From: Desulfobacteraceae bacterium Eth-SRB1
GTDB taxonomy: Bacteria > Desulfobacterota > Desulfobacteria > Desulfobacterales > ETH-SRB1
Assembly (NCBI GenBank): GCA_004193555.1
Contig: RPGP01000001.1
Span: 732,790-796,789, forward strand
Direction of reading: 5' to 3'
Length of the DNA: 64,000 nt
Shown: one piece after another, positions 3-60,238 of the stretch
Numbering within the stretch: position 1 is the first letter of the stretch
How the letters are laid out: every line of letters begins with the position of its first letter
The notes under the pieces: generated by a model
Told to the model about the DNA's origin: nothing
The model's database searches: none
What the model saw: the letters and a program-made list of their open reading frames with translations, nothing else
Translations under genes and position numbers: made by a program

Positions 3-1409
3 GAATTTGATATTTGTACATGCCTATCGGTTATGAACTGGGTCAGAGACAAGGAGAAACTTATAGATTTTCTATCAAGGCAACGAATTGTTATTTATGA
101 AGGTCACGACAACGATCAAATTGAAATCGGTCGGTTAAGGCAAGCCGGTTTTGCAGGAATTGAAAAGGTTGCAGTCAGTGAACGAGGACGCGGTGTCTTT
201 ATCGGGAAAAAAGAAAGGACTGAAAAAAAAATTGATTGGGATGAATTTGAGAAACAATATGGTTTAGAAGGAGCAGCCTATCATGTGCCCTGTGTGAATG
301 TTGGAGACGGAAACAGCCTCGAACGAGTTTACTTTAAAACCGAAGTTTGGAAGGTAAGGTTGTCTGATAGGAAAAATCCTGCAAAACTTGCCGACCCTCA
401 TGAAGAAGCACAATTTCTCAAAACATTAAAAGATGTTCCAAATGTGTGCCGATTAAAAGAGTATATCGAGAAAGAGGATCATACCATTACAATTATGGAT
501 TACTTTCCCAACATCGGCACATTGGAAGAAGCAGATATTCCTCCTGAATTCAGAGACAAAGTAGAGAAACAAAAACATCAAATAATTAAGTCAGTTAACA
601 ATGCCGGAATTTTGCATAATGATATGTTTGACAGAAATTTTCTGGTGAACTCAAATTATGATATTTGTTTGATCGATTTTGACCAAGCTCAATTCGCAGA
701 AGGACGAAATGATTATGAGGATGGTTATTATTACAAAGCACCAAGACTAAAAAGCATTGCTAAAAAGAAATTCGATAATAACTCTCGTCTAAACCTTGTT
801 ACAGAGGCGTGGGACATTGCAGCGAGGAGCAATGCCAGTTATCCTGGTAAATACGTTGCCTACTATTCACTAAATGTGGATGGGAAGCGTTTTTCTGGTG
901 AGCGTCTATGGGAAGATAGATGGGGATATATTGGTAAGGCGTTGCGTGATGCCTGCGGCGGAGACCTCAAGGGAAAGAGGATTATTGAACTGGGCTGCAA
1001 CCTCGGTCTTCTGAGTGTGTGGTCAGCGCGGGAAGGAGCGATCTGTCATGGATATGAGTATGAAGCCGATATCCTGGAAGGGAGCAAGCTGGTAGCTTCT
1101 GCATTTGGAGTATCTGAGAGATGTAAGTGGAGCCAGGTTAATTTTAATAAGAAAGAGGATACCGACAGCATTGTTGATGAATTTGATATTTGTACATGCC
1201 TATCGGTTATGAACTGGGTCAGGGATAAGGAAAATCTGATCGATCTGCTCTCCAGGCAGAAAGTCGTTCTTTATGAAGGTCATGAAGAAGATGAGATTGA
1301 AACTGGTCGTTTAAGGAAAGCCGGTTTCTCAGGAATTGAAAGGGTGGCGGTCAGTGAACGAGGACGCAACGTATTTTTGGCCAGGAAAGACGATTTAACC
1401 AGTGTCTGA
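3..1409 (+). CDS. Kinase-like / SAM-methyltransferase fusion, 5'-partial
   Basis: The reading frame is open to the left edge, so the true N-terminus lies outside the window. The first ~70 residues repeat the C-terminal end of the same protein almost exactly (MNWVRDKE, VSERGR motifs), in frame at a spacing of 1176 bp (392 codons). The middle part has an atypical kinase fold signature: HND followed by N five residues later, then IDFD in place of DFG (nt ~610-690). The C-terminal third is a class I methyltransferase with the SAM motif IIELGCNLGLLS (nt ~980-1015). The order seen is therefore methyltransferase tail, kinase, methyltransferase, as if a two-domain module had been duplicated in tandem. 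The role is unknown. Neighbouring glycosyltransferases suggest modification of a sugar or surface polymer. The atypical kinase could act on a sugar, as LPS kinases do; that is inference. Confidence 0.75.
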   Translation, partial: EFDICTCLSVMNWVRDKEKLIDFLSRQRIVIYEGHDNDQIEIGRLRQAGFAGIEKVAVSERGRGVFIGKKERTEKKIDWDEFEKQYGLEGAAYHVPCVNVGDGNSLERVYFKTEVWKVRLSDRKNPAKLADPHEEAQFLKTLKDVPNVCRLKEYIEKEDHTITIMDYFPNIGTLEEADIPPEFRDKVEKQKHQIIKSVNNAGILHNDMFDRNFLVNSNYDICLIDFDQAQFAEGRNDYEDGYYYKAPRLKSIAKKKFDNNSRLNLVTEAWDIAARSNASYPGKYVAYYSLNVDGKRFSGERLWEDRWGYIGKALRDACGGDLKGKRIIELGCNLGLLSVWSAREGAICHGYEYEADILEGSKLVASAFGVSERCKWSQVNFNKKEDTDSIVDEFDICTCLSVMNWVRDKENLIDLLSRQKVVLYEGHEEDEIETGRLRKAGFSGIERVAVSERGRNVFLARKDDLTSV

Positions 1410-1597: not shown

Positions 1598-4402
1598 ATG
1601 TCAAAAAAGAAAAAAAGACCTCTCAATAAAAAGACAAAGGCGCCCGGAAAACGAAAGGTGCCAAGTAAAACAAGAGCCGGAATGGTTTCAGACATCATTT
1701 CATCTGCTTTAGCCTTATATCAGCAGGGAGATGTCCGTGGGGCTAAGAGGGCGTTTCTCAGTATATCAAGAAAGAATCCTCTTAATACAGATGCCTTATA
1801 TAACTTGGGGATAATAGCAAAAGATCGGCAAAACTACGATGAGGCCATAGATTATTATGAAAAGGTCATTTCGATAAACCCCGCTTATGTAAACGCCTGT
1901 TTTGGCCTTGGCGGCATATTTATCGACCAGGCAAGATATGATGAGGCCAATGAAAAATTTCAGAAGGTTGTATCCCTCTCTCCGAATTATGCCAACGCAT
2001 GGTATAACCTTGGAATCATAGCGGCTACGCAGGGCAGGCGTGATGAGGCAATCAAGTATTATCAAAAGGCGCTGTCCATAGACCCAACCTTTGTAAATGC
2101 CTGTTATAATATTGGCCTTATGCTGCTTGAGCAAAAGAAATATGATGAAGCGATCGAATATTCTCAAAAGGTAATTTCCTTAAATCCGGGGTATGTTGAC
2201 GCATTGTTCAATATAGGATCTGCAATGCAGAACAAAAACGACTATGCCGGGGCCATAGAGTATTATGAAAAAGCCCTGGCAATTAAGCCCGATTATTATC
2301 TTGTCCATAACAACCTCGGCATTATTCATCAGGCGCAGTATAATTTTGACAAGGCGATCGAGCATTACGAAAGAGCCATATCTATCCAGCCCGAGACCGC
2401 CGATGCCTATATGAATATGGGAAATGTATTTCGAAACAGTGGTGATGTTCAAAAGACTGTCGAGTATTATAAAAAATCTATTTCTCTCAAACCGAGTCTG
2501 GTGGGATTGAATAATCTCTGCGGGTATCAGAAAGAGCTATGCAATTATGAGGAAGTGCTCGATCTTTCGGGAAAGATCCTTGAATATAATGATCTGGATA
2601 AGGCTGATCTCGCGGGCATTCATGACACATGTATCCAGACGTGTGAATGGGAGAAGGCAAGCGGCATAATCGAAAGGTTCAGAAAGACTGAAATGAATCC
2701 GGCGGCCAGGGATGTCCTTGCCGGCAGCTTTATGGAATTTTGCGCGATAACCGACCTGAGCCTCGATGAGATATCCGAGCAGCATAAAAAATGGGGGGAG
2801 TTGACGGAGCGGGAGGCAGAGCCTTTTGAGCATGATAAAAGAGAATCAACCGGCACAGAGAGGAAAAAATTGAGAATCGGCTATTCATCCCCCGATCTGA
2901 GAGAGCATTCTGTCGGATACCTTATTAAGGATATTATTAAAAGCCATAACCATGATGAATTTGAAATCTACTGTTATGCGAATTTTTTTGAAAAGGAAAA
3001 AGATGCATTCACCCGGGAAATCATAAACAGCGGCGCTGTGTTCAAGTATGTCAAGCATTTGCCGGACAGGGAGGTGGCCGAGGAGATATATAAAGACGAG
3101 ATAAATATCCTGATCGACCTTGCAGGCCATACAGCCGGACATCGATTGAGGGCTTTTGCATACAAGCCTGCGCCCATTCAGATAACCTACCTTGGCTATC
3201 CAAACACAACCGGTCTTTCCCGCATGGATTACAGGCTCACCGACTGCTATGCAGAATCAGGCAGGGAGAATGATTATCGATATTCTGAAAAACTGATCAG
3301 GCTCACAAACTGCTTTTTGAGTTTCAATGGGTTTGGCGATGTTGTTCCGGCTCTGATCAAGGGTCATAGAAGGGGGGGGATCATCTTTGGCTGCTTCAAT
3401 AATATTCAGAAGCTCACGCCAAAGGCTGTGGAGTTGTGGTCAAAAATCCTGAAGGAGGTTGAGGGCAGCGAACTTCATCTCAAGGCAAAACAGCTAAACA
3501 CAGAATTTATCTGGGACAATATAATGAAAAAATTTGCAAAGTATGGAATATCTGAAGAACGGGTCAAATGCCTCGGTTATACTGCTACCAGAGAGGAGCA
3601 CCTGAGACTTTACGGCAGCATGGATATTTCGCTTGATACATTTCCCTACAACGGCACCGTCACTACCCTGGAAGCGCTGTGGATGAATATTCCGGTGATT
3701 ACACTTGTGGGAGAGAGCCATGCCCAGAGGGTCAGTTATTCTATCCTGAAAAATCTTAATCTGGATCAATTGATCGCGTTTACAGAAGAGGAATATGTCT
3801 CAAAATCCATAGAACTGGCAGAGAATCCTGAAATAATCAGGGGATTGAAGACAAAGATGAGGAAGAATCTTCTGGCATCGTCGATCTGCAATCCCAGGGT
3901 TATCACACGGGAGATGGAGCTCAATTTCAAGAGGATATGGATGGAGTATCAGGAGTCAGGGATCAGGGGTCAGGGGTCAGAGGTCAGGGAGCAGAAATCG
4001 GGGGTCAGGAGTCACCCCGGTGAAATGCGCCCCGCTGTCGTAAACGAATTTCACAGGGCAGGGAGGGCAGGGGATACTGTTGGGGATGCGATAAGTGCGG
4101 CGAGCAGGTTGAGGATGGCTATGGTTAAACTTGAAAAGGGAGAATACGGGCAGGCCATTGAGATCAGCTCTTCATTAGTTGATGAAAATGGGGTTTCTTA
4201 CCTTGCCTGCTATATACTTGGGGTTTCTCATTTTAGATTGGGGAGAGAAAAAGATGCTATTGAGGCGCTAAATAAATCATTGAGTCTGAACAACAGTAAT
4301 CCGGGCGTCTGGAAAGCGCTGGGAGAGATTTATCTGTCAATGGGAGAGATTGATGAGGCGAATGCCTGTCTTGAGAGGATCGCAGCGCCCCACAACATGT
4401 GA
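1598..4402 (+). CDS. TPR-domain O-linked glycosyltransferase (GT41, OGT/SPINDLY-like)
   Basis: A Lys/Arg-rich start is followed by about nine TPR units (residues ~35-330, typical NALYNLG / DEAIDYYEKAI patterns). The GT41 catalytic region follows (~430-760), with LRIGYSSPDLREHSVG, the DLAGHT..R motif, a GCFNNIQKLTP segment containing the UDP-binding Lys, and LDTFPYNGTVTTLEALWMN. A C-terminal TPR pair ends the protein. GT41 enzymes transfer GlcNAc or related sugars to Ser/Thr of proteins. Between the GT domain and the last TPRs, residues ~784-806 are encoded by the intergenic word GGGGTCAG (SGIRGQGSEVREQ), an in-frame repeat intrusion. The location beside a Ser/Thr-rich flagellin makes flagellin the likely acceptor; that is inference. 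Confidence 0.88.
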   Translation: MSKKKKRPLNKKTKAPGKRKVPSKTRAGMVSDIISSALALYQQGDVRGAKRAFLSISRKNPLNTDALYNLGIIAKDRQNYDEAIDYYEKVISINPAYVNACFGLGGIFIDQARYDEANEKFQKVVSLSPNYANAWYNLGIIAATQGRRDEAIKYYQKALSIDPTFVNACYNIGLMLLEQKKYDEAIEYSQKVISLNPGYVDALFNIGSAMQNKNDYAGAIEYYEKALAIKPDYYLVHNNLGIIHQAQYNFDKAIEHYERAISIQPETADAYMNMGNVFRNSGDVQKTVEYYKKSISLKPSLVGLNNLCGYQKELCNYEEVLDLSGKILEYNDLDKADLAGIHDTCIQTCEWEKASGIIERFRKTEMNPAARDVLAGSFMEFCAITDLSLDEISEQHKKWGELTEREAEPFEHDKRESTGTERKKLRIGYSSPDLREHSVGYLIKDIIKSHNHDEFEIYCYANFFEKEKDAFTREIINSGAVFKYVKHLPDREVAEEIYKDEINILIDLAGHTAGHRLRAFAYKPAPIQITYLGYPNTTGLSRMDYRLTDCYAESGRENDYRYSEKLIRLTNCFLSFNGFGDVVPALIKGHRRGGIIFGCFNNIQKLTPKAVELWSKILKEVEGSELHLKAKQLNTEFIWDNIMKKFAKYGISEERVKCLGYTATREEHLRLYGSMDISLDTFPYNGTVTTLEALWMNIPVITLVGESHAQRVSYSILKNLNLDQLIAFTEEEYVSKSIELAENPEIIRGLKTKMRKNLLASSICNPRVITREMELNFKRIWMEYQESGIRGQGSEVREQKSGVRSHPGEMRPAVVNEFHRAGRAGDTVGDAISAASRLRMAMVKLEKGEYGQAIEISSSLVDENGVSYLACYILGVSHFRLGREKDAIEALNKSLSLNNSNPGVWKALGEIYLSMGEIDEANACLERIAAPHNM

Positions 4403-4411
4403 GATTACACC

Positions 4412-6193
4412 ATGCAAACAGATTATTGGATAGAAAATACAGCTATATGCAGAAAAAAACACCCATATCTTGATGTTAACCTCATGGATATTGAGAATAG
4501 CAGGGTCATTCCGGTTTTTTCAAAGAATGGCCTGCCTACTTTCAAATATGACATCGGCGCAGGAAAAGCAAAATATTTTCACAGCAGTTATGATCCGCTA
4601 TCAGAGGCGGTAAAATGGGCGGATGGATCAAGTTTTGACAGCGATTCCATCATTGTAGTATTGGGCACGGGCTTTTTTTATCATATCTCTGAGCTGATAA
4701 AAGAGATTCCTGATAATCGGATTGTAATACTCCTGGAAAGGGATGAAGAAATCTTCCGCGAGGCGCTGAAAGCCGTAGATCTGCGGGATGTTTTGAGCCG
4801 CGATAATCTTTATTTATTTGTCGGTAGCGAGCCGGCCGGGGCCATCAAGTTTATAACAGGAATCCAGATGGATAATTCCTTTAAGAAAATAAGATTTTTA
4901 TCCCATCAGTCGTCGATTCAAACCTTTTCCGGATTTTACAGAGAGATAATAGATGGGTTTTCCGCTTCAGGCAAGCTGAATATCTTTGACCGTCTCAGGT
5001 ACAAAAAATTTTACCGTGAAGACGTCAGGGTTCTCCTCCTCACAACCCAATATTTCCTCATGGGCGAGATAATCAGCGCAATGGAAAGGCTGAACATAAA
5101 ATACAGGTTAATAACCCTGGGACAGGATGAGATAGGCTGCCGGAAATTTATCGAAGAAATCATTAAAGATATTCTTGATTTCAAACCGGATTTTCTGTTC
5201 ACCATCAATCACCTTGGCATGGATCGTGAGGGTATTCTGGCGCAATTCCTTGCAAGGATTGAGATGCCTTTTGCGTCATGGTATGTGGACAATCCGAATC
5301 TGATTATCAGACGCTATGAGAAAAATGTTACCCCCTACTGCGCCATGTTTCTCTGGGATAAAGATAACTTGCCCGACATGCGGGATCTTGGATTTGAGCA
5401 TCTCTTTTATATGCCGCTTGGCGTTGACGAAAGACGCTTTTGCCAGATAAGAAATGAGGCCAACCCCATGCCCCATCTTGCCTCCGACGTGGCATTTGTC
5501 GGCAATTCCATGGTGAAGAAGGTCAGGGACACATTAATGAAGACCGAGGTGAACGGACGCTTGAATGCGCTTTTCAAAGATATAGCTAAAGATTACATGG
5601 AGAGTGAAGAGAGGCAGATAGAGGAGATTATCAGATTAAAATACCCCGGGCTGTATGACGACTTCCAAAAATTGGGCGATGTGAACAGAACAGGTTATGA
5701 AACCGCTGTAAATTGGGAAGCGACGAAGATCTACCGGCTGGAAAGGGTAAAAATGCTTCTTTCCTTCAGACCCTTAATCGTGGGAGATCCACACTGGCCG
5801 GAATTGATTGACGATGGTCTGTTCAGGTATCACAGGGAACTGGCCTATTATAACGAACTTCCATGCCTGTATAATGCGGCGACGATCAATTTTAACGCGA
5901 CCAGCAGACAGATGAAGGGCGCCGTTAATCAGAGGGTCTTTGATGTGCCTGCCTGTAATGCTTTTTTACTAACCGATTATCAGGAACAGATGGATGAATT
6001 ATTTACAGTTGGTGAAGAGGTTATATGTTATAAAGAACCGGGTGAGATAAGAGGGCTGATTAAGTACTACTTGAATCACGAGAGTGAGAGAAAACGAATA
6101 GCGGAAAAAGGATACAAAAGAATAATCAGGGACCACACATACGTATCGAGAGTGACAGGGATGGTCGGGACGATGAGGAGAATATTTTCATAG
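4412..6193 (+). CDS. Maf-N-like / CgeB-type glycosyltransferase
   Basis: This 593-residue protein starts 9 bp after the TPR glycosyltransferase stop, so the two are probably co-transcribed. The N-terminal third resembles the motility-accessory-factor (Maf) N-domain: VVLGTGFFYHISELIKEIPD, then an acidic ILLERDEEIF motif. The rest looks like DUF3880 plus a GT-B C-terminal domain of the CgeB type (SWYVDNPN, VAFVGNSM, then YNAATINFNATS...NQRVFDVPACNAFLLTD near the C-terminus). Maf proteins attach nonulosonic acids to flagellin in other bacteria. This fusion and its place between a GT41 enzyme and flagellin suggest flagellin glycosylation. The donor sugar cannot be told from sequence. Confidence 0.75.
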   Translation: MQTDYWIENTAICRKKHPYLDVNLMDIENSRVIPVFSKNGLPTFKYDIGAGKAKYFHSSYDPLSEAVKWADGSSFDSDSIIVVLGTGFFYHISELIKEIPDNRIVILLERDEEIFREALKAVDLRDVLSRDNLYLFVGSEPAGAIKFITGIQMDNSFKKIRFLSHQSSIQTFSGFYREIIDGFSASGKLNIFDRLRYKKFYREDVRVLLLTTQYFLMGEIISAMERLNIKYRLITLGQDEIGCRKFIEEIIKDILDFKPDFLFTINHLGMDREGILAQFLARIEMPFASWYVDNPNLIIRRYEKNVTPYCAMFLWDKDNLPDMRDLGFEHLFYMPLGVDERRFCQIRNEANPMPHLASDVAFVGNSMVKKVRDTLMKTEVNGRLNALFKDIAKDYMESEERQIEEIIRLKYPGLYDDFQKLGDVNRTGYETAVNWEATKIYRLERVKMLLSFRPLIVGDPHWPELIDDGLFRYHRELAYYNELPCLYNAATINFNATSRQMKGAVNQRVFDVPACNAFLLTDYQEQMDELFTVGEEVICYKEPGEIRGLIKYYLNHESERKRIAEKGYKRIIRDHTYVSRVTGMVGTMRRIFS

Positions 6194-6251: not shown

Positions 6252-6803
6252 ATGAAAATCTTAATAGATGGAACCGAGACGACGCTCAGCGGTTCTTTTG
6301 GCAACCTTGAAGAGGTTCTGCAGGAAATTTTGAAAAACCAGATCAGTGAAGAAAAGATCGTATGGACAGTCAGACTAAACGGCGAAAACTACAGCGAAAA
6401 GTCGCCTCACGATGCCCGGAAAATCAGGATAGACGACATCTATACCCTTGAGATTGGGACTACGGACAAGACCGGAATAGGCCGGTCTTTTCTTGAAAAT
6501 AGCGGCATGATATTTGATAACCTGTGTAAGAGCGCTGAGAAGATATCCGGCCTTTTTCGCATGTCCGACGAAAAGGAGGCCAACAGGCATTTTGTAAAAT
6601 TCCTGGAGTCCTATAGGGACCTGATTTTGATGTTCAGGCAGGGTGAGGATATTCTTGAATTGGATTCTCAGGAAAAGCTTGCGTCACTGGAAAAAATAGC
6701 CGATGAGATTATTGCCGCCCAGGAAAAGGAAGACTGGATTATGTTAGCCGATTTGCTGGAATATGAACTGGCGCCTCTTTTAAAAGGAGCGTTATCGCTT
6801 TAG
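6252..6803 (+). CDS. Conserved-type hypothetical protein next to flagellin
   Basis: A 183-residue soluble protein with no signal or membrane segment. It starts at an ATG preceded by GAGGTAAC (AGCGAGGTAACA), a good ribosome site. Residues 1-75 are strand-rich and could be a small beta-grasp-like fold. Residues 85-183 are helical and amphipathic. The family is not recognised here. It follows two glycosyltransferases in the same direction and converges on flagellin, so a role in flagellin handling (a chaperone or modification helper) is possible but unproven. Confidence 0.6.
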   Translation: MKILIDGTETTLSGSFGNLEEVLQEILKNQISEEKIVWTVRLNGENYSEKSPHDARKIRIDDIYTLEIGTTDKTGIGRSFLENSGMIFDNLCKSAEKISGLFRMSDEKEANRHFVKFLESYRDLILMFRQGEDILELDSQEKLASLEKIADEIIAAQEKEDWIMLADLLEYELAPLLKGALSL

Positions 6804-6900: not shown

Positions 6901-8259
6901 TTACCCACCTAAAAGCTGCAATGCCAGCCGGGGCATGGCGTTCGCCTGGGAAAGCATGGCGGTTGCCGCCTGTGCCAGTATATTATTCCTCGTGAACTCC
7001 GTCATCTCCGCCGCAACATCAACGTCGGAAATCCGGCTTTCTGCGGCCTGGGTATTCTCCGCCTGGATCGTCAGGTTGGTGATGGTGTTCTCCAGCCGAT
7101 TCTGCATGGCGCCAAGCCCGGCGCGCGCCGTGTCTTTTGTACTAATAGCATCATCAACTTTACCCAGAGCCTCCGCAGCACCTGCCTGAGTGCTCAGCTT
7201 GGCACCGGTCGCAGCCACCGCAGCCTGAGAAGCAACCGCAGCCTGAGAAGTAACCGCAGCCTGAGAAGCAACCGCAGCCTGAGAAGCTCTTGCAGCTACT
7301 GAGGCAACCGTGGCTGCTGAAACACTTGCTACAACCGCAGCCTGAGAGGCAACCGAAGCATGAGAGGCCACTGAAGCCTGAGAAGTTACCGCAGCCTGGG
7401 AGGTAACCGCAGCATGAGAAGTAACCGCAGCCTGAGAGGCAACCGAACCACTGGTTCCTATTGCAGCCCTTGAGGCAACCGAAGCCTGAGAGGCAACCGA
7501 AGCATGAGAGGCAACCGCAGACTGGGTTGTTGTATATGCAGCCTGAGATGCTGCCACGGCCAGTGAAGCTCTCGAAGCACGGCTCGCTGTGGTATTCACT
7601 GCGGCCAGTGAGGCCAGTGAGGCCCTTGAGGCACTTACAGCCTGGGAGGCAGCCGCAGCCTGTGACGTAACCGCATCTTGAGCGGTCACCGCAGCCTGAG
7701 AGAAACCGCCTATCGCAACGCCCAGCGTCTCGGCGGTCATATCCTCGATGGTGATATAATAATAATCCTGCGCGGAATCATTGCCGGTGCCGAAGTGGAT
7801 CTTCATGCCGGCTGTAGCAGAGCTATCGTTGGATAGCTCGCCATTTAGCAGGGCTGTCCCGTTAAAGTCGGTCGCCTCGGCGATTCGTGTGATCTCCTTG
7901 GCCATCTCGTCATACTCATCTTCCATGATCTGCCTTTGCGCAGTGGTGTAGGTGCCGGTCGCTGCCTGCTCCGCCAGCTCCTTCATTCGGATAAGCTTCT
8001 CGTCGATAACCTGCAGGCCGCCTTCAGCGGTCTGAATCATAGTGATGGCGTCTCCAGCATTTCGAACACCTTGATTCAGCACGGCAATATCCGCCCGTTG
8101 CATTTCACGAACTGCCAGACCTGCCGCATCATCCGCAGCGCTGTTGATCCGCAGTCCCGATGAGAGCCGCTGGGTGGATACAGCGAGGCGATCATAAGCT
8201 GTGCCCAGGTTCCTGGCGGCATTCATCGCCACTAAGTTGTTATTAATAACTAAACTCAT
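6901..8259 (-). CDS. fliC: Flagellin with central hexapeptide-repeat domain
   Basis: The filament subunit. Residues 1-~140 are the canonical D0/D1 N-terminus (MSLVINNN, LSSGLRINSAADDAAGLA, FNGTALLNGE). Residues ~365-452 are the canonical C-terminal D1/D0 helices (ISDVDVAAEMTEFTRNNIL). Between them (~185-352, nt ~7205-7705) the usual D2/D3 region is replaced by about 24 copies of a six-residue unit close to SQAAVA, SQAAVT or SHASVA, with a few three-residue insertions. Almost every unit begins with Ser. Translation starts at ATG 8257-8259 behind AAGGAGGA (8266-8273). It has its own sigma28-type promoter and a leader hairpin. It is the only flagellin in the window. fliD and fliS are not seen. 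Confidence 0.95.
   Translation of the reverse strand: MSLVINNNLVAMNAARNLGTAYDRLAVSTQRLSSGLRINSAADDAAGLAVREMQRADIAVLNQGVRNAGDAITMIQTAEGGLQVIDEKLIRMKELAEQAATGTYTTAQRQIMEDEYDEMAKEITRIAEATDFNGTALLNGELSNDSSATAGMKIHFGTGNDSAQDYYYITIEDMTAETLGVAIGGFSQAAVTAQDAVTSQAAAASQAVSASRASLASLAAVNTTASRASRASLAVAASQAAYTTTQSAVASHASVASQASVASRAAIGTSGSVASQAAVTSHAAVTSQAAVTSQASVASHASVASQAAVVASVSAATVASVAARASQAAVASQAAVTSQAAVASQAAVAATGAKLSTQAGAAEALGKVDDAISTKDTARAGLGAMQNRLENTITNLTIQAENTQAAESRISDVDVAAEMTEFTRNNILAQAATAMLSQANAMPRLALQLLGG
7205..7705 (-). repeat. 18-bp tandem repeats encoding flagellin hexapeptides
   Basis: Degenerate 18-bp units (plus-strand words like GCAGCCTGAGAAGTAACC) code for SQAAV[AT]. Units nearest the 3' end of the gene (7210-7290 and 7380-7440) are nearly identical and those nearest the 5' end have diverged, consistent with recent slippage or unequal-crossover expansion at one end. 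Confidence 0.85.
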
Positions 8260-8288
8260 AATTTATCCTCCTTGATTTTTTGTTTTCT

Positions 8289-8306
8289 CCCGGCATCCTT
8301 GCCGGG
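8289..8306 (-). promoter_or_regulatory. Flagellin leader hairpin, candidate CsrA site
   Basis: Read on the minus strand, CCCGGCA-AGGA-TGCCGGG forms a perfect 7-bp stem with GGA exposed in the loop. The second GGA is the Shine-Dalgarno site (AAGGAGGA, 8266-8273), 15-16 nt downstream. CsrA typically bridges one GGA in a hairpin loop and one at the ribosome site, as on B. subtilis hag mRNA. csrA and fliW are in this window. Confidence 0.6.
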
Positions 8307-8399
8307 TTTGTCAACAGTTGAAATTCTTATTTTCCGTTTTGCTAAACATTCCTTTCGAGATTCCACCTCCTTTCCTGTTTATTTACCTCGTTGATTTAT

Positions 8400-8426
8400 T
8401 TATCGTCAGATTGTGTGAAAATCTTA
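8400..8426 (-). promoter_or_regulatory. Sigma28 (FliA) promoter of flagellin
   Basis: The minus strand reads TAAG-N15-GACGATAA, one mismatch in each half of the TAAA-N15-GCCGATAA consensus. It lies about 140 nt upstream of the start codon and leaves a leader that contains the hairpin at 8289-8306. Confidence 0.65.
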
Positions 8427-8450
8427 AGCAAAAACTTATCTGTTCAGAGA

Positions 8451-8641
8451 TGATGAACTCGTAAAAAGTCATTTGTGAGCGAGATTGAGCAGTTTTGGAA
8501 AAAGATTCAGATTGAGCATGGCGTTAAAAATTGCAAGCTGTTTGAGGCCGTTAGGCCGAGTTCTTGCAATTTAGACAGGATTAATCTGAATCCCAAAAAT
8601 GCTCACGGAGCGAACAAATCGTACTTTTTACGAGTTCATCA
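8451..8641. repeat. 191-bp palindromic element with 19-bp perfect terminal inverted repeats
   Basis: The ends are TGATGAACTCGTAAAAAGT and its exact complement. The interior is also imperfectly self-complementary (GATTCAGATT..., GTTAAAAATTGCAAG...CTTGCAATTT), so the whole element can fold as one long hairpin. Shorter relatives with GATGAATTCGTAAAAAG ends lie at 12727-12876 and 18647-18675. It carries no gene. Confidence 0.85.
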
Positions 8642-8698
8642 GAGATGAAAGGTGAAAAAACCTCACTCCTTTGTGGGAGCGGGGTTTTAGTTATGGGT

Positions 8699-11455
8699 TC
8701 AGTTGTCATCAACCGGTTGTATCTTATGCTTTAAAAAGGCTTTGAAAGACTTGAAAAACGAAAATAATAATCCTCCAAGAACTCCGAAAATGATAAAATA
8801 CTTCTGATAGAAGCCGGTATTGCCTGCCGTGGAAATATTAAATTCCGGGGAAAAAGTATTAAGATAATAAATTATGACAGGGAAAATGATTGTGCCTGCA
8901 AACAGGATAACAGAAAGAATTAAGGCTGAATTTTTTAAAAACATGATTAAAAACGTTTTGATATCCAGCATCATTTTTAGTCTTTTTAATTCCGGCTCTA
9001 TCTCATCCAATTTTTTTGAAATTTCCTCACATCGTATAGACATTTCCCGAAATCCGTTTCCACCCCCTCCCAAACCTTCCCCCTTGAAGGGGGAGGGCAA
9101 GGTGGGGGCGTTAAATTTTATCGCTTCCGAAATTTGATTGAGTTCCGATTGAACAGTTTCTAATTGTTTATAGGCGGAATTAGAGAGAAGCCTGGAATAG
9201 TAATTCCTTGTAAGGCTGAAAATGTTTCCTGTGCGCTTATGTATTTTTTTAATGGCATTCATGAACTCTCTTTTACGCCGGCTTATGGTTTTGCAGCAGG
9301 CGCTGATCACAGAATCGCCAAGATACGCCATGTCTAAGTACCCAAAGTAACTATCAGTGCGCGCCAACTCCTTTATCTTTGACAACCCGGCGCCTGCTTT
9401 TTTAATTTCATCATCATTTCCCCCCAAAAACTTTTCGAGTTTGGAAAATTCTCTTTCAGCGCCATAAGCCATTTTTTGTGCTTTTTGCCGGGTTTCCTTG
9501 AAAAGTTTCTTGAGTTCCGGGTGAATTATCTTGTTAAACTCTGCGAGGTCCGGATCAATTAAGGCATTAATATAGTATTCCCTGTTCATCCGAATAAGTT
9601 TAATGAGCTGTTCCAATGCCCTATCTTCTTTTCCATACTTAAATTTAAACACTATCTCCTGATATGCGGCTTCCATACAAAAGGGATCGATGATAAAAAC
9701 TTCTCTTATTTTTTTTAGAGCATTGTCGGGATTGCCTGCAAGATCATAAAAACGGGAGAGTAAAAGCAGGATAAAAATTTTTTGAAGCTTTGTCTTTGCG
9801 TAATGAAGCGCCTTGTCAAGGTAATGTTCGCTCTGGGAGTTATTGCCTTTTTCTATATTCAGAAAATACTGTGCACAATACACCCTGTAGTCGTCAGGAT
9901 ATTTTTCCAGACAGGTTCGCAAAAGCGATTCCGCCTGAAGAAGGTTGGAAACGCGGATGCAATCTTGAGCTAACCACAGGAACCCGCCTTTGTCGGAATT
10001 TCCATTCTCTGTTGTTGCGATTTTGTCCCACTCATTATTTTGATTATCCCGGATAGTTTTGAAGAAACGAAGCTGAAAGACCTGTTTGAGTTCATAGAAT
10101 ACAAGGCCGCCCGATAGTTCCTGCCCGCGCGATTCTTCCGGAAATTTTACGGTTTTTTGTTTTGCTTCTTCCGAGCTCATTAGATACGCAAGGAAAATGT
10201 CGTTGATTTTATCAAAAGGAAGATACCCAAATTTATTTAAAACACAGGTCATCTCCGTAAGATGTTTGGAGGGACAGTTTTTGGCAGCATGTTCTTTACT
10301 TCCGCAGTAAAAACAGGGTGAGTTTCGTCCCCTGCATAAGGCATCCTGATATAAGAAAAGCAAGGTAGTTTCTTTTTGTTTATAATCATCGAAGGTTATT
10401 TCATGGAAGGATTGAGTTCGGTCCGGATCAGTTTGGTCCGGACCGGGCGATGTTGAAGGAACAATTGGGCTGTCTTGTTCTTTTTCTATTAATCTGCAAG
10501 CGGAAGGTGACATGTAGATTGTTCCCGGATGGAATCCTTCCCAGTCTGCTTTAAATCCTTGGCAAACCAGTTTGTCGATTTCCAGACAAGGGCCGGCATC
10601 GATAATGATTTGTACGGGTAGAATGCGTGATTCTTTATCAGCGCTTAAATTTTCCCTGAGAAATTTTAACACATCATCAGCTACATCCATAAGAAGAGAT
10701 GCTTTTTTTGCAATAAGTATAACAGATTGATTATCCATTATTGCTTCACCATCAATTTTGCCGTTCCAGAAGAGGGCTTTAGCCTTGATGAGATTGTCCC
10801 AGATGTTGTCGAAATTACCGAATCCCAATTTTCGAAGAGGTCTCATATAAATGACCGATATCATGGTTGGATCAAAGTCGATGCTTTTATCCCATAGAAC
10901 CTGATAAATTGTCGGCTCCATTGAAGCCTCGTTTTTATCCTGGATTTCGACAGATTCAAACTGAAGGGAAGGCAATGTATTAATTATAGTAAAAACATCG
11001 TGAGATATGAATATTTGATTGCTTCCCGCAAGATTTGTAATTTTAGATGCTATATTTACCGCATTTCCGAAAATATCTTTATCTTCGACAATACCCTCGT
11101 CAAAATGAATTCCAATTCTTACATGGATTTCATGCTCTGCATCTTTTTGCTTGTTATATCTGTTGAACTCTTTCTGTATTCGTATGGCGCCCTTTGCCGC
11201 CTCCAGGGGGTTGGCGAAATAAGCCAAAACCGAGTCGCCCATATTTTTGACGACAGTTCCGCCGAATTTTGTGATTGCTTTTGAAACAATGTCTTCGTGT
11301 TGCCGGAGCATTTTGCGTCCAGCGAGATTGCCGTGAGATTTGAAAAACCCGGTTGATCCAATGATGTCTGTAAAAAGGACAGCTATTTTCTTGACAGATT
11401 TTTTTGTATTTACGTTGGGAATCATAATTTCTGGTCCTTTTAATTTATTCGGCAT
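8699..11455 (-). CDS. Class III nucleotide cyclase with zinc knuckle, TPR-like region and C-terminal membrane anchor
   Basis: The cyclase domain spans residues ~20-190, with FTDIIGST and NMGDSVLAYF (metal-binding Asp residues), a Lys in VVKNMGD and an Asp in DKDIFG, which favour ATP as substrate. The usual transition-state Arg in NxxxR is Lys here (NIASK), so activity may be reduced. A degenerate second domain follows, then a CCHC zinc knuckle (C381, C384, H389, C394), TPR-like helices (~480-640), a helical stretch and two hydrophobic segments in the last ~75 residues. Residues ~782-799 (TLPSPFKGEGLGGGGN) come from an in-frame palindromic insertion. The start may be residue 11 (ATG at 11425), which has AAAGGACC upstream. 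Confidence 0.8.
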   Translation of the reverse strand: MPNKLKGPEIMIPNVNTKKSVKKIAVLFTDIIGSTGFFKSHGNLAGRKMLRQHEDIVSKAITKFGGTVVKNMGDSVLAYFANPLEAAKGAIRIQKEFNRYNKQKDAEHEIHVRIGIHFDEGIVEDKDIFGNAVNIASKITNLAGSNQIFISHDVFTIINTLPSLQFESVEIQDKNEASMEPTIYQVLWDKSIDFDPTMISVIYMRPLRKLGFGNFDNIWDNLIKAKALFWNGKIDGEAIMDNQSVILIAKKASLLMDVADDVLKFLRENLSADKESRILPVQIIIDAGPCLEIDKLVCQGFKADWEGFHPGTIYMSPSACRLIEKEQDSPIVPSTSPGPDQTDPDRTQSFHEITFDDYKQKETTLLFLYQDALCRGRNSPCFYCGSKEHAAKNCPSKHLTEMTCVLNKFGYLPFDKINDIFLAYLMSSEEAKQKTVKFPEESRGQELSGGLVFYELKQVFQLRFFKTIRDNQNNEWDKIATTENGNSDKGGFLWLAQDCIRVSNLLQAESLLRTCLEKYPDDYRVYCAQYFLNIEKGNNSQSEHYLDKALHYAKTKLQKIFILLLLSRFYDLAGNPDNALKKIREVFIIDPFCMEAAYQEIVFKFKYGKEDRALEQLIKLIRMNREYYINALIDPDLAEFNKIIHPELKKLFKETRQKAQKMAYGAEREFSKLEKFLGGNDDEIKKAGAGLSKIKELARTDSYFGYLDMAYLGDSVISACCKTISRRKREFMNAIKKIHKRTGNIFSLTRNYYSRLLSNSAYKQLETVQSELNQISEAIKFNAPTLPSPFKGEGLGGGGNGFREMSIRCEEISKKLDEIEPELKRLKMMLDIKTFLIMFLKNSALILSVILFAGTIIFPVIIYYLNTFSPEFNISTAGNTGFYQKYFIIFGVLGGLLFSFFKSFKAFLKHKIQPVDDN
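9060..9108. repeat. Palindrome inserted in frame in the cyclase gene
   Basis: CCTTCCCCCTTGAAGGGGGAGG is a near-perfect hairpin, flanked by C-rich and G-rich tracts. It is read through in frame, so it adds a Pro/Gly-rich stretch to the protein without breaking it. Confidence 0.75.
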
Positions 11456-11476
11456 TGATCCTGTAAAACTTAAATT

Positions 11477-11617
11477 GAGACCTTTGCATAAGCGCTATTT
11501 TCCAGTGATGCGGCGTCAAGCTCAAATTTTAAGCCTCGAAATACTCAATCTACTCCTACGGTTAGAATTTTAGCGTTCCTTGCCTGACAAAAAAATGTCG
11601 CGTTCTGCAAAGGTCTC
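11477..11617. repeat. 141-bp element with GAGACCTTTGCA terminal inverted repeats
   Basis: Perfect 12-bp terminal inverted repeats (GAGACCTTTGCA/TGCAAAGGTCTC) enclose a non-coding, partly self-complementary interior. The element fills most of the gap between the divergent cyclase gene and flaG. It is MITE-like and carries no recognisable transposase. Confidence 0.75.
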
Positions 11618-11684
11618 GTTACAACATATTTTTGAGGAACCACAACAGAATCGTATGTGATAACGGCGAATCCCGGAAGGTCCG

Positions 11685-11996
11685 GTGAATAAGCTCGTTG
11701 CTTCCGGGAGTCCGCGTGCAGAAGAAGACCATGTGAAGACGTTTGAACCTGAGATAAGCGGATCTGTTGATAATCAACAGGCACGAGAGTTGACGGAAAA
11801 ACTTCAAGGATACATAGACAGGATGAATATAAACATAGCCTTTGCCACATACGGGGGAAAGAATAAAAATATTTCAATTGTCGTATCTGAAAAAGAAACA
11901 GGAGAGATAATCCGTAAAATTCCGCCTGAAGAACTGCAGGGATTACATGCAAAAATGGAAGAGCTTTCCGGCATGCTTTTTAATGGAATGGTTTAA
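11685..11996 (+). CDS. flaG: FlaG flagellar protein
   Basis: The C-terminal ~75 residues match FlaG: LTEKLQGYIDRMNINIAFATY, then VSEKETGEIIRKIPPEEL. FlaG proteins affect filament length and filament cap assembly. The start is GTG at 11685 behind CGGAAGG. The N-terminal ~25 residues are variable, as in the family. Here flaG is separated from flagellin by the cyclase gene and fliD is not adjacent. Confidence 0.85.
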   Translation: MNKLVASGSPRAEEDHVKTFEPEISGSVDNQQARELTEKLQGYIDRMNINIAFATYGGKNKNISIVVSEKETGEIIRKIPPEELQGLHAKMEELSGMLFNGMV

Positions 11997-12006
11997 CCAC
12001 TCAGGT

Positions 12007-12921: not shown

Positions 12922-12942
12922 AATTGTATCAGGGGACAGGGA

Positions 12943-13072
12943 TGAGAGGATGAGAAGGTGTGAGGGTGAGAGGATGAGAAGGTGTGAGGGTGAGAAGTTT
13001 TGTTTTTGAGTTCTTTACTAATCTTCTAATCTTCTCATCTTCCTACCTTCTGATCTTCCAACCTTATGAATG
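12943..13072. repeat. AGAAGGT-word hairpin cluster, 'empty' four-helix-type element
   Basis: The left arm repeats GATGAGAAGGTGTGAGGGTG. The core is AAGTTTTGTTTTTGA then TTCTTTACTAATCTTCT, and the right arm repeats CTTCTCATCTTCCTACC. The right arm also encodes the last residues (RLEDQKVGR) and the stop of the minus-strand HD-GYP gene. Confidence 0.8.
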
Positions 13073-18871: not shown

Positions 18872-20278
18872 ATGAAAACAAAAACGATTCTAATTGTTGA
18901 CGATGAGCCCTCAATGAGGATTGCTCTTTCCGAATCTCTAAAGAGTTGCGGATATAAAGTTGAAGTCTCAGGGAGTGGCGCTGATGCTCTTGAAAAATTT
19001 CAGGAGGATAAATTTGAAGTGGTTATAACCGACATAAGGATGCCCGGAATGTCCGGCATGGATGTCCTGCGTGGCATTAAAAAGATTTCTTCTAAAACTC
19101 CTGTTATTGTCATAACGGCTTACGGGACGGTCAATACCGCAGTCGAAGCTATGAAAGAAGGGGCCGCGGATTTCATCATGAAGCCCTTCTCAATAGATCA
19201 TCTCGAATTGCTTGTTAAAAAAGTGGTGGCTGAAAAACAAGGAAAAAGGGAAGGTAAATCAAAGCATAATTTAAAAGGATGCTTGTCCCGGAAAAAAACG
19301 ATTATTACAGAAGATAAAAAAATGCTTGCCCTTCTGGAGTTGCTGAAAGGTGTGTCCGGAAGCAAATCAAGCGTTCTGATACAAGGGGAAAGCGGTACGG
19401 GGAAGGAGCTAATTGCCCGGTATATACACCTTCACAGCGGCAGGGCAGATATGCCGTTTGTGGCGGTAAATTGTGCGGCTATCCCTTATAATCTTCTTGA
19501 GAGCGAAATGTTCGGGCATGAAAAGGGCGCATTTACCGGTGCGTCCCGAATGAGGCTTGGCAAATTCGAATTAGCCGGTGGCGGAACATTGTTGTTAGAT
19601 GAAATCAGTGAAATGGATGTTCAGCTTCAGGCGAAGCTCCTTCGGGTTATACAGGAATCCGAAATCGACAGGCTGGGAGGCAAGGCGTCTGTGCCTGTAG
19701 ATGTTAGAATAATTGCCACAACAAATGCGGATTTAAAAAAATATATTAAGGACAAAAAGTTTCGGGAAGATCTTTATTATCGTTTGAATGTTGTACCTGT
19801 GAACATTCCTCCACTGAGAGAAAGAAAAGGGGATATGCCGTTACTCTGCGGTCATTTTCTGGAAAAGTACAGCCGGCTCGGCAAGACGGCCAAGCCCGTG
19901 TTATCGAAGGAAGTTGAGCAACTACTTGAAAGTTATAACTGGCCTGGCAATGTAAGGGAGCTGGAAAATGTGATTGAGAGGGCGGTGCTGCTGTCCGGTG
20001 GCGAAAGGATTCTGCCTGAACATCTCTATCTGGAAAAAGAAGGCGAGAGTCGCCGACAACCGGTGGAAGCATCGTTAAAATTGGTTGCCTCAGAAGACAC
20101 CACGTTAAAGGAGATGGAAAAAAAACTTATATTTAAAACTCTGGAAAAGGCGGAAGGAAACAGGACCAGGGCATCAGAAGTTTTAGGCATAAGTGTGCGA
20201 ACTATTCGTAACAAACTCAATGGATATAAACAGGGGTCAGGGGTTAGAAGGTTAGAGGGTCAGAGGGTCAGAGGGTGA
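18872..20278 (+). CDS. flrC: Sigma54-dependent response regulator, FlrC-like
   Basis: The receiver domain (VVDDEP-like start LIVDDEPS, phospho-acceptor Asp in VVITDIRMPGMSG, Lys in MKPF) is followed by an AAA+ domain with GESGTGKE (Walker A), the sigma54-contact loop GAFTGA, GGGTLLLDEI (Walker B) and the R-finger region, then a Fis-type HTH (NRTRASEVLGISVRTIRNKL). The start is ATG 18872 behind GGAGAG. It is the likely activator of the seven sigma54 sites in the window. The C-terminal tail (GSGVRRLEGQRVRG) is encoded by intergenic repeat words. Confidence 0.92.
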   Translation: MKTKTILIVDDEPSMRIALSESLKSCGYKVEVSGSGADALEKFQEDKFEVVITDIRMPGMSGMDVLRGIKKISSKTPVIVITAYGTVNTAVEAMKEGAADFIMKPFSIDHLELLVKKVVAEKQGKREGKSKHNLKGCLSRKKTIITEDKKMLALLELLKGVSGSKSSVLIQGESGTGKELIARYIHLHSGRADMPFVAVNCAAIPYNLLESEMFGHEKGAFTGASRMRLGKFELAGGGTLLLDEISEMDVQLQAKLLRVIQESEIDRLGGKASVPVDVRIIATTNADLKKYIKDKKFREDLYYRLNVVPVNIPPLRERKGDMPLLCGHFLEKYSRLGKTAKPVLSKEVEQLLESYNWPGNVRELENVIERAVLLSGGERILPEHLYLEKEGESRRQPVEASLKLVASEDTTLKEMEKKLIFKTLEKAEGNRTRASEVLGISVRTIRNKLNGYKQGSGVRRLEGQRVRG

Positions 20279-20395
20279 GAGGATTAGAGGATTAGAGGGT
20301 GAGAAGGTGAGAAGAGCAGAAGGGAAGAGGGTGAGAAGTTTTGTTTTTGAACTTTTTACTAATCTTCTTACCTTCTGATCTTCTAACTTTCTGCT
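20232..20395. repeat. GGGGTCAG and AGAAGGT word cluster at the end of flrC
   Basis: The left arm is GGGGTCAGGGGTTAGAAGG..., the core is AAGTTTTGTTTTTGA then TTTTTACTAATCTTCTTACC, and the right arm is CTTCTAAC. The left arm overlaps the last ~14 codons of flrC. Confidence 0.8.
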
Positions 20396-46710: not shown

Positions 46711-47223
46711 ATGATATTATTTAATGGATATTACAAAAAGACGCTGATAGCCATATGCCTGTGCATTGCGTTGTTTGCAGGCAGCGGGTCTGTCAGGGGC
46801 CAGGGGTCAGGGATCGGGGATCAGGGGTCGGAGGTCGGAGGTGGGGGGTCGGAGGTCGGAGGTCAGAAGTCAGGAGTCAGGAGTCAGGGGTCGGAAGTCA
46901 GGAGTCAGGAGATCTGTGAAGAAAAGTTTGAATATTTTAATGACTTCATTATTTATTATAAACCTGTCTTCCGTGACGAACGTGACGCAGGCGGGAAGGA
47001 CAGAATTCTGGTTTGTGACGTGGTTGTTGAGCTGAATCGAGGGATGAAACTGCCACAAGAGAGGATCGAGTTGAGAAAGATCATATATAACACATTGAAA
47101 GAGTCTTCAGATTTGCATGAAATCAGGAGAAGCTTAAAAGAAAAAATTAAAATTGGTTTGAATAATTTTATGAATGATGAAATAATAAAGAAAATGTATT
47201 TTACTAAATTTATTTTATTGTAG
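46711..47223 (+). CDS. FliL-like membrane protein with a repeat-encoded linker
   Basis: 170 residues from ATG 46711 (no clear ribosome site). A membrane segment (KKTLIAICLCIALFAG) is followed by about 45 residues of GSGVRGQGSEVGG-type low complexity. That linker is entirely encoded by a GGGGTCAGGG/GGAGGTCGGAGGTC tract (46791-46918). The C-terminal ~95 residues resemble the FliL domain (VVVELNRGMKLPQERIEL, ending MYFTKFILL). The repeat DNA separates anchor from domain in frame. Confidence 0.65.
   Translation: MILFNGYYKKTLIAICLCIALFAGSGSVRGQGSGIGDQGSEVGGGGSEVGGQKSGVRSQGSEVRSQEICEEKFEYFNDFIIYYKPVFRDERDAGGKDRILVCDVVVELNRGMKLPQERIELRKIIYNTLKESSDLHEIRRSLKEKIKIGLNNFMNDEIIKKMYFTKFILL
46791..46918. 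repeat. GGGGTCAG/GGAGGTCGGAGGTC tract inside the FliL-like gene
   Basis: A 128-bp run of 7- to 8-base words, all translated in one frame, lengthens the linker between membrane helix and periplasmic domain. Confidence 0.85.
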
Positions 47224-55841: not shown

Positions 55842-56210
55842 ATGGAAGGAATAAAATTAAACGGATCACCAACAGAGGTGCTTTCCGGGCGAGGGAAAAT
55901 GAATAAGCCTGACGGGCATCAGCTTGAAATCAAGGAAGAGAAGCTGAAAAAAGCGTGCGCTGATTTTGAATCCATCTTCATCAATTACATGCTTAAGACC
56001 ATGCGGCGCGCGATTCCGCAAAGCGGAACCAAGTTTCCAGGCAAGGATATTTATTCCACAATGGTTGACCGGAAGGTAGCTGAAAACCTCGCAAAAAGAG
56101 GAGGAGGCATAGGTCTTCAGGAAATGCTCCTGCGCCAGCTTGGGTCAGAGGTCAGAGATCGGGGGTCAGGGGTCAGGGGTCAGGGATTAGGGATTAGAGG
56201 ATTAGGTTGA
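55842..56210 (+). CDS. flgJ: FlgJ-type rod-binding protein
   Basis: 122 residues from ATG 55842, behind GTGAGGAAT. It contains the rod-binding domain (ADFESIFINYMLKTMRRAIP, GKDIYSTMVDRKVAENLAKR). There is no muramidase domain, as in other non-enteric FlgJ proteins. The C-terminal ~20 residues (GSEVRDRGSGVRGQGLGI) are encoded by GGGGTCAG words. Confidence 0.9.
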   Translation: MEGIKLNGSPTEVLSGRGKMNKPDGHQLEIKEEKLKKACADFESIFINYMLKTMRRAIPQSGTKFPGKDIYSTMVDRKVAENLAKRGGGIGLQEMLLRQLGSEVRDRGSGVRGQGLGIRGLG

Positions 56211-59008: not shown

Positions 59009-60238
59009 ATGGTAATGCGTATATCGGAAAACATAAAGTTTAATACAATAGTCGATAATATGTTTAAGTCCCAGGACAGTTATAATAAACTTGCGGAAAA
59101 AATTGCTTCACTAAAGGAAATTAACAGGCCGTCGGATGATCCCATCGGTATGAACAGGGTGCTGAACTTACGAGAATCCAGAGCATCCGTCGAACAGTAC
59201 ACCCGGAATATGAATGGCTGTGAATCATGGCTCACAATCACGGAATCAAAACTGTCAGCTGCGGGCGACCTTCTAATAAGAGCCAGGGAAGTAGCTGTTG
59301 CCCAGTCAACGGCGACTGCATCTGCCGAGATGCGAAGCGCTGAAGCCGGGACTGTGCAACAGCTTATAGATGAAATGCTTTCCCTTGCCAATTCAAAGTA
59401 TGATGGCAAGTATCTCTTTTCAGGCGCGAAAACCGGAGAAGAGCCTTTTTCATCTTCCAGAAGATCTACCGCTGAAATAGGAACGGCTATTGAAGCTGAA
59501 GGAAATGGTGATTTTGACGGCACAGTGACTTCAGGCGGAGTTTATTCAGGTACTGAGAACGGGACTTATGTGGTGAAAATCGTTGCAGGCGGCACACTTG
59601 CTGATGCGACATATAAGGTATCTGATGATGGCGGAAAGAACTGGAGTGAGGGCACACCTGCATTTGGTGCGCTGGTGGACGATGCTGCTACAATTACACT
59701 GGGAGACGGAGTAGAATTAACATTTACAAAGGAATCAGATGCTGATCATTATCTGGCCAAGGATGACATCTTTTACGTCCAGGCCCTTGCCCCTGGCTAT
59801 TACAACGGCAACGGCGAAGAACTATCTGTTAATATCGGTGAAGGAACGCCCTTTGCTTACTCCATTTCCGGTGAAGCGGCCTTTACGGACAAGGGGGAAG
59901 GGAATGTTGAAATATTCAGTATTCTCAATAAGCTGAAGGATGCGCTGGATAATAACGAACCGGATACCATTGCCTCCTGTCTGGACGATCTCAAGGCTGC
60001 GTCCGATCAGATAATAAAGAATATTTCCAAATGCGGCGCCAGGATGAACAGGCTGGAGATAGCGAAAAACAACATGGCTGATATGGAGATGGATCTGACA
60101 GGGTTGATTTCCGAGGTAGAAGATGCAGATGTATCTGAGATAATTACTAAGTTTGCCATGAAAGAGATCGCCTTGAAAGCATCGTACACAGCAGCCTCAA
60201 GGATAGGAAATTTAACAATACTCGATTTTCTTAGGTGA
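59009..60238 (+). CDS. flgL: Hook-filament junction protein FlgL (HAP3)
   Basis: 409 residues. The N-terminus is flagellin-like (INRPSDDPIGMNRVLNLRES) and the C-terminus also (ISKCGARMNRLEIAKNNMAD). The middle is expanded (residues ~165-290, with a beta-rich insertion DGTVTSGGVYSGTENGTYVV). It is longer than the ~300-residue enteric form. It starts behind GAGAGG. Confidence 0.94.
   Translation: MVMRISENIKFNTIVDNMFKSQDSYNKLAEKIASLKEINRPSDDPIGMNRVLNLRESRASVEQYTRNMNGCESWLTITESKLSAAGDLLIRAREVAVAQSTATASAEMRSAEAGTVQQLIDEMLSLANSKYDGKYLFSGAKTGEEPFSSSRRSTAEIGTAIEAEGNGDFDGTVTSGGVYSGTENGTYVVKIVAGGTLADATYKVSDDGGKNWSEGTPAFGALVDDAATITLGDGVELTFTKESDADHYLAKDDIFYVQALAPGYYNGNGEELSVNIGEGTPFAYSISGEAAFTDKGEGNVEIFSILNKLKDALDNNEPDTIASCLDDLKAASDQIIKNISKCGARMNRLEIAKNNMADMEMDLTGLISEVEDADVSEIITKFAMKEIALKASYTAASRIGNLTILDFLR

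Follow-up and report, generated by a model that had tools for sequence, protein, structure and literature searches.

Repeats and duplications are known inside flagellin inserts (PMC6248924), and both the D2/D3 domains of FliC and the giant flagellins resemble the flagellin analyzed here in that a large insert stands at the same place between conserved D0/D1 parts (PMC6248924). Known inserts consist of duplicated domains of greater size (the DE regions of Oceanospirillales), whereas that of the present flagellin consists of short hexads. No flagellin insert made of short hexads, and no flagellin with a beta-helix, a beta-solenoid or a hexapeptide repeat of such a kind, was found in the open-licence literature. 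Six large flagellins of the same order (L013, L015, L016, L019, L021 and L032) carry STLAAG/TVLGGG-type hexad repeats; they share with our locus hexad-repeat outer domains and belong to neighbouring families, but theirs is another unit, with Gly as its last residue, whereas the unit described here ends in [AS].

FlmG of Caulobacter is a TPR flagellin O-glycosyltransferase (PMC7591256), to which we tentatively liken an enzyme of our locus that differs in being a Pfam Glyco_transf_41 protein accompanied by a second, Maf-like glycosyltransferase and a small gene. Gram-positive serine-rich repeat adhesins also combine a low-complexity Ser-rich repeat with adjoining glycosyltransferases; the repeat at our locus, in contrast, lies in a flagellin that has none of the other domains of these adhesins, carries Val at each sixth residue and is interrupted by recurring break motifs. 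Left-handed parallel beta-helix proteins (Hexapep PF00132, NeuD and LpxA type) follow the hexapeptide rule [LIV]-[GAED]-x-x-[STAV]-x. They share with the present domain a period of six, an aliphatic position 1 and a small position 5, but the latter shows neither a Hexapep match nor an 18-residue period and displays instead a near-invariant Ser at position 3 and four co-varying arms.

A hexad-repeat outer domain in the only flagellin of the genome

The window, by which we mean the whole 64,000-nucleotide stretch of the Desulfobacteraceae bacterium Eth-SRB1 genome that was analyzed, carries a flagellin gene preceded on the map by four genes of the opposite strand (Table 1). A whole-genome search (3.34 Mb, 98% complete) returned a single other Flagellin_N (PF00669) match, in a FlgL-like gene at 59009-60238, and the gene at 6901-8259 thus encodes the main and only flagellin of this genome.

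Table 1. Features of the flagellin locus, in window coordinates.
Feature	Coordinates	Strand	Length	Remarks
Kinase-like and methyltransferase protein	33..1409	+		65% identical to its counterpart in the L089 cassette
TPR and glycosyltransferase family 41 protein	1598..4402	+	934 aa	O-GlcNAc-transferase-like
Glycosyltransferase	4412..6193	+		Glyco_trans_1_2 and DUF3880; weak Maf_flag10_N match
Small gene	6252..6803	+	183 aa	No Pfam or NCBIfam match; convergent with flagellin
Flagellin	6901..8259	-	452 aa	Stop codon included in C-terminal part
N-terminal D0/D1 part	7708..8259	-		Residues 1-184; Flagellin_N match, residues 5-141 (1.4e-32), above cut-off
Hexad outer domain	7207..7707	-	167 aa	Residues 185-351; about 26 units V-A-S-Q-A-[AS]; autocorrelation and segmentation
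Proposed arm 1	7600..7707	-	36 aa	Residues 185-220; split by alignment to relatives; end (turn 1, VNTTASRAS) picked by eye
Proposed arm 2	7462..7599	-	46 aa	Residues 221-266; ends at recurring ASRAA/IGT motif (turn 2)
Proposed arm 3	7333..7461	-	43 aa	Residues 267-309; starts IGTSGS, end picked by eye
Proposed arm 4	7207..7332	-	42 aa	Residues 310-351
C-terminal D1/D0 part with stop codon	6901..7206	-		Residues 352-452; Flagellin_C match, residues 365-450 (6e-27), above cut-off

The place of D2/D3, between the Flagellin_N and Flagellin_C parts, is occupied by a domain composed mostly of Ala (37%), Ser (20%), Val (14%) and Gln (9%), with Ser and Thr together amounting to 29%. By autocorrelation, its lag-6 identity reaches 0.48, compared with 0.21 after shuffling (z 9.4), with 0.46 at lag 12 and 0.42 at lag 18. 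The initial annotation had described a flagellin with a hexad outer domain of 24 units at 7205-7705; the terminal Pfam matches and the period-six signal confirm this architecture, the borders being corrected to 7207-7707 and the number of units to about 26. Pfam Cementoin (PF10511), which passed its cut-off of 27 bits on the domain alone (27.5) but reached just 21.1 on the whole protein, was dismissed as a composition effect.

A fitted segmentation yielded 26 hexads in the window domain and 189 over seven homologues, with the consensus V-A-S-Q-A-[AS]. Position 1 is V, I, L or M in 143 of the 189, position 2 is A, T, G or S in 184, position 3 is Ser in 154, position 5 is Ala in 151 and position 6 is Ser or Ala in 174; position 4, Gln in 114, is in the remainder another larger residue, such as R, Y, L, H or N. 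The units are therefore more varied than the SQAAV[AT] and SHASVA forms first reported, and the extra residues between the window hexads (VNT, Y, V and AT) do not form the regular three-residue inserts that had been described with them. TRF detects the 18-bp unit as a tandem repeat. Nevertheless, 12 of the 14 canonical window units have distinct DNA, and their differences are highest at third codon positions (0.39 versus 0.05 at second positions, the first- and second-position figures being lowered by the choice of units by protein pattern), which indicates that the repeats are old and not a recent minisatellite.

Relatives and gene neighbourhood

Scanning 84,980 species genomes with a sequence pattern retrieved 25 stretches, four of them flagellins: L060 from Alphaproteobacteria, L061 from Desulfobacteraceae, L073 from Desulfobacterales (from the same place as L056) and L079. 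Most of the 25 were simple repeats or unrelated frames and were discarded. Searches in the phylum of the window added L089 and L090, and L116 came from a search of the order to which the alphaproteobacterial genome with L060 belongs. Besides that of the window, seven hexad flagellins were thus found, five of them in one Desulfobacterota clade with the window flagellin and two alphaproteobacterial (L060 and L116) on an unrelated flagellin backbone. The initial annotation had considered such a flagellin novel and proposed a search for relatives; with only these seven recovered, and none in the open-licence literature, its rarity is borne out.

The Desulfobacterota clade spans two classes. Among 395 genomes of the phylum, a convincing hexad flagellin was found only in the window's own genome and in those of L089 and L090, and G001, a genome of the same genus, has a flagellin from another group; the hexad flagellin is patchily distributed in Desulfobacterota. 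In a D0/D1 tree, the six Desulfobacterota hexad flagellins form one group and the two alphaproteobacterial ones lie far apart from them, from which we infer that the hexad domain has been gained or moved at least twice. The sister of the six-member clade is L057 of genome G051, a short flagellin that has no hexads (SH-aLRT 99). Residues 175-190 of this protein, at the junction with the C-terminal helix, read LSIASQASAQAALGTIDTAI, near one hexad unit, and may represent the starting unit of the repeat expansion.

Some version of the cassette formed by the TPR-GT41 gene, the DUF3880/Maf-like glycosyltransferase gene and the small gene (Table 1) accompanies all six clade members. Relatives of the TPR-GT41 protein (53-85% identical), of the Maf-like glycosyltransferase and of the small gene adjoin the flagellins L056, L079, L089 and L090, and L061, on a contig of 5.8 kb, retains the glycosyltransferase and the small gene. 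The latter, whose stop codon lies 97 bp from that of the flagellin gene in the window, is present in 6/6 Desulfobacterota hexad genomes and in the sister-clade genome G051, together there with a flagellin without hexads, but was not detected in a further 12 genomes of the order that carry flagellins. Next to the alphaproteobacterial flagellin L060, too, lies a TPR-GT41 gene, whose product is 30% identical to that of the window over 787 residues. TPR-GT41 genes, however, occur near non-hexad flagellins as well (G005, G014 and G033) and are common in the alphaproteobacterial order; they are therefore not specific to the repeats, and we rejected them as a marker of hexad flagellins.

The TPR-GT41 protein is probably a flagellin O-glycosyltransferase; the glycosyltransferase at 4412-6193 probably acts in flagellin glycosylation, and the protein at 33-1409 possibly modifies the glycan. 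O-glycosylation of the repeated serines is plausible and, with FlmG as a supporting example, glycosylation of the domain is likely on general grounds. The Ser-rich repeats, initially put forward as good O-glycosylation substrates, do lie beside glycosylation genes.

Several further observations were made in the window. Upstream of the flagellin gene, positions 8452-8645 hold a long imperfect inverted repeat with ends gatgaactcgtaaaaagt...actttttacgagttcatc, which resembles a small mobile element or a repetitive one. In a close relative (L100, CSMAG_486), fliD-like and fliS-like genes follow the flagellin; at that place the window (8260-12000) has a gene for a 918-aa protein with a cyclase domain. 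Many arrays of 7-8 bp units (TCAGGGG, AGGGTGAG) are scattered throughout the window between genes and at gene ends, for example at 3949-4014, 12938-12995, 20234-20312, 46801-46911 and 56142-56199, and some extend into gene ends, giving GSGIRGQGSEVR-like tails.

Concerted arm lengths and the fold of the hexad domain

The hexad runs of the relatives are interrupted by three recurring motifs (ASRAA/ASGTSYAS, ASRAA/IGTNAS and SLA/RxSxATG), and the breaks, rich in Gly and Asn, divide each domain into four arms. Arm boundaries were set by eye and 6 of the 18 are arguable, namely turns 1 and 3 in the window flagellin and L079, and turn 2 in L089 and L056. Arm lengths are 18/26/23/26 in L090, 30/38/35/38 in L061, 36/45/42/46 in L079, 36/46/43/42 in the window, 36/48/43/44 in L089 and 42/53/50/50 in L056. 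Across these six clade members, total domain length spans a two-fold range, from 93 to 195 aa, with the four arms changing in step: arm lengths correlate pairwise with r of 0.97-1.00, and relative arm lengths differ by 2-4%. Between L090 and L061, each of the four arms gains exactly 12 residues, a result independent of the ambiguous boundaries. Likewise, where turns 1 and 3 are both clear (L090, L061, L089 and L056), arm 1 measures 18, 30, 36 and 42 residues and arm 4 measures 26, 38, 44 and 50, with shared increments of 12, 18 and 24. A multinomial test of the arm lengths gave P 0 in 20,000, a value that is too good since the test was run after the fact on related proteins. In the alphaproteobacterial hexad flagellins the four-arm split is not clear.

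Arms of an insert that both starts and finishes in D1 must be even in number, and antiparallel arms, if there are four, would have to match in length; the concerted lengths thus suggest four antiparallel arms and not one coil. Most likely the chain would exit D1, travel outwards and return two times, so making four arms similar in length (about 36, 46, 43 and 42 residues in the window flagellin), and re-enter D1. The arms, which may be helices or strands, would form an elongated rod that evolves longer or shorter as hexads are added to or lost from all four of them. The near-invariant hexad serines would be displayed as a regular array on the rod and would probably be O-glycosylated in the cytoplasm, ahead of export, by the adjoining TPR-GT41 enzyme; the filament would thereby acquire a thick sugar coat. 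Taken as a whole, with the rod, its antiparallel path, the glycosylation and the coat role each drawn from sequence and context, we consider this proposal about evenly poised between holding and failing. That it amounts to a new scalable fold, a rod of four antiparallel hexad arms whose length depends on how many hexad layers it has, found on two unrelated flagellin backbones and glycosylated on a regular serine lattice, is a tentative idea, possible rather than probable.

AlphaFold2 was run twice. With the window flagellin and six hexad sequences, the mean pLDDT was 43 and that of the hexad region about 24. With the shortest relative, L090, and 54 rows, the D0/D1 fold was well modelled (pLDDT of 84-95 over most of it, lower at the N-terminus), and Foldseek placed flagellar filaments on top of its PDB matches (9hpz, 8jmv and 6t17), which cover D0/D1 only. 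The hexad domain of this model (pLDDT 40-58) shows low-confidence helices at residues 183-198, 207-223 and 255-269, corresponding to arms 1, 2 and 4, and breaks, also at low confidence, near two of the sites that separate the arms. A phmmer comparison of a hexad stretch with the PDB found no match at E up to 10. Hydrophobicity peaks at 60 and 180 degrees and no moment exists at 100 degrees (z -1.9 to 0.0 in 8/8 domains), which led us to reject an amphipathic alpha-helical coiled coil; helices with three equivalent faces stay compatible.

In the initial reading, the domain may form a left-handed parallel beta-helix, a single uninterrupted coil of three hexads or 18 residues per turn that projects from the filament. 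The unit V-[ATGS]-S-Q-A-[AS] does fit the hexapeptide rule in part, if only loosely since position 2 is often Thr; residues 214-350 match the sugar acetyltransferase family NeuD_NnaD below threshold (E 0.016, 14.8 bits), and the hydrophobic moment at 180 degrees is raised. Pfam Hexapep, however, gave no match at E up to 10 in three hexad domains while weakly matching the control L016 in the same scan (3e-4, below the curated cut-off), so that the STLAAG-repeat flagellins are better beta-helix candidates than that of the window. A pattern of the PROSITE PS00101 type had no match in seven domains. No lag-3 hexad excess was detected at any position, although equal faces could hide an 18-residue super-period, and neither AlphaFold2 run, both of low confidence in the domain, contained a beta-solenoid. 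Moreover, the lengths change by 6 or 12 residues per arm in four arms, not by whole coils, and such concerted lengths do not follow from a single solenoid. A left-handed beta-helix fold is unlikely for the hexad domain, and the single projecting coil, in our estimate, very much so.

An unfolded, heavily O-glycosylated Ser/Ala-rich brush, comparable to the serine-rich repeats of Gram-positive adhesins and with the hexad as a mere recognition unit for the glycosyltransferase, would account for the small-residue composition, the 29% of Ser plus Thr, the adjoining glycosyltransferases and the very low pLDDT of the hexad domain. We nevertheless regard it as rather unlikely: Val at every sixth residue would be unexpected, and an unfolded chain needs no proportionate arms, whereas lengths here vary in lockstep between Gly/Asn-rich breaks. 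D2/D3 are dispensable in many flagellins, and a product of slippage without selected structure might for this reason be tolerated, in line with the tandem repeat seen by TRF and with repeat numbers that differ among relatives. Most units differ in DNA yet keep the protein pattern, however, this pattern persists in a clade that covers two classes and recurs on another flagellin backbone, and the indels are co-ordinated between arms, all of which makes slippage highly improbable.

Significance for flagellin outer domains

The outer domains of flagellins determine filament thickness, surface chemistry and recognition by phages and hosts, and to our knowledge few outer-domain types have solved structures. 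The novelty of the hexad flagellin is real but modest: the protein is a known one, its type of outer domain is new, and the rule that its lengths follow is unusual and can be tested. One six-residue unit builds an entire outer domain, on two unrelated flagellins, with arm lengths in step, and the natural length series from 93 to 195 residues would allow direct measurement of the fold, the diameter of the filament and the density of glycans.
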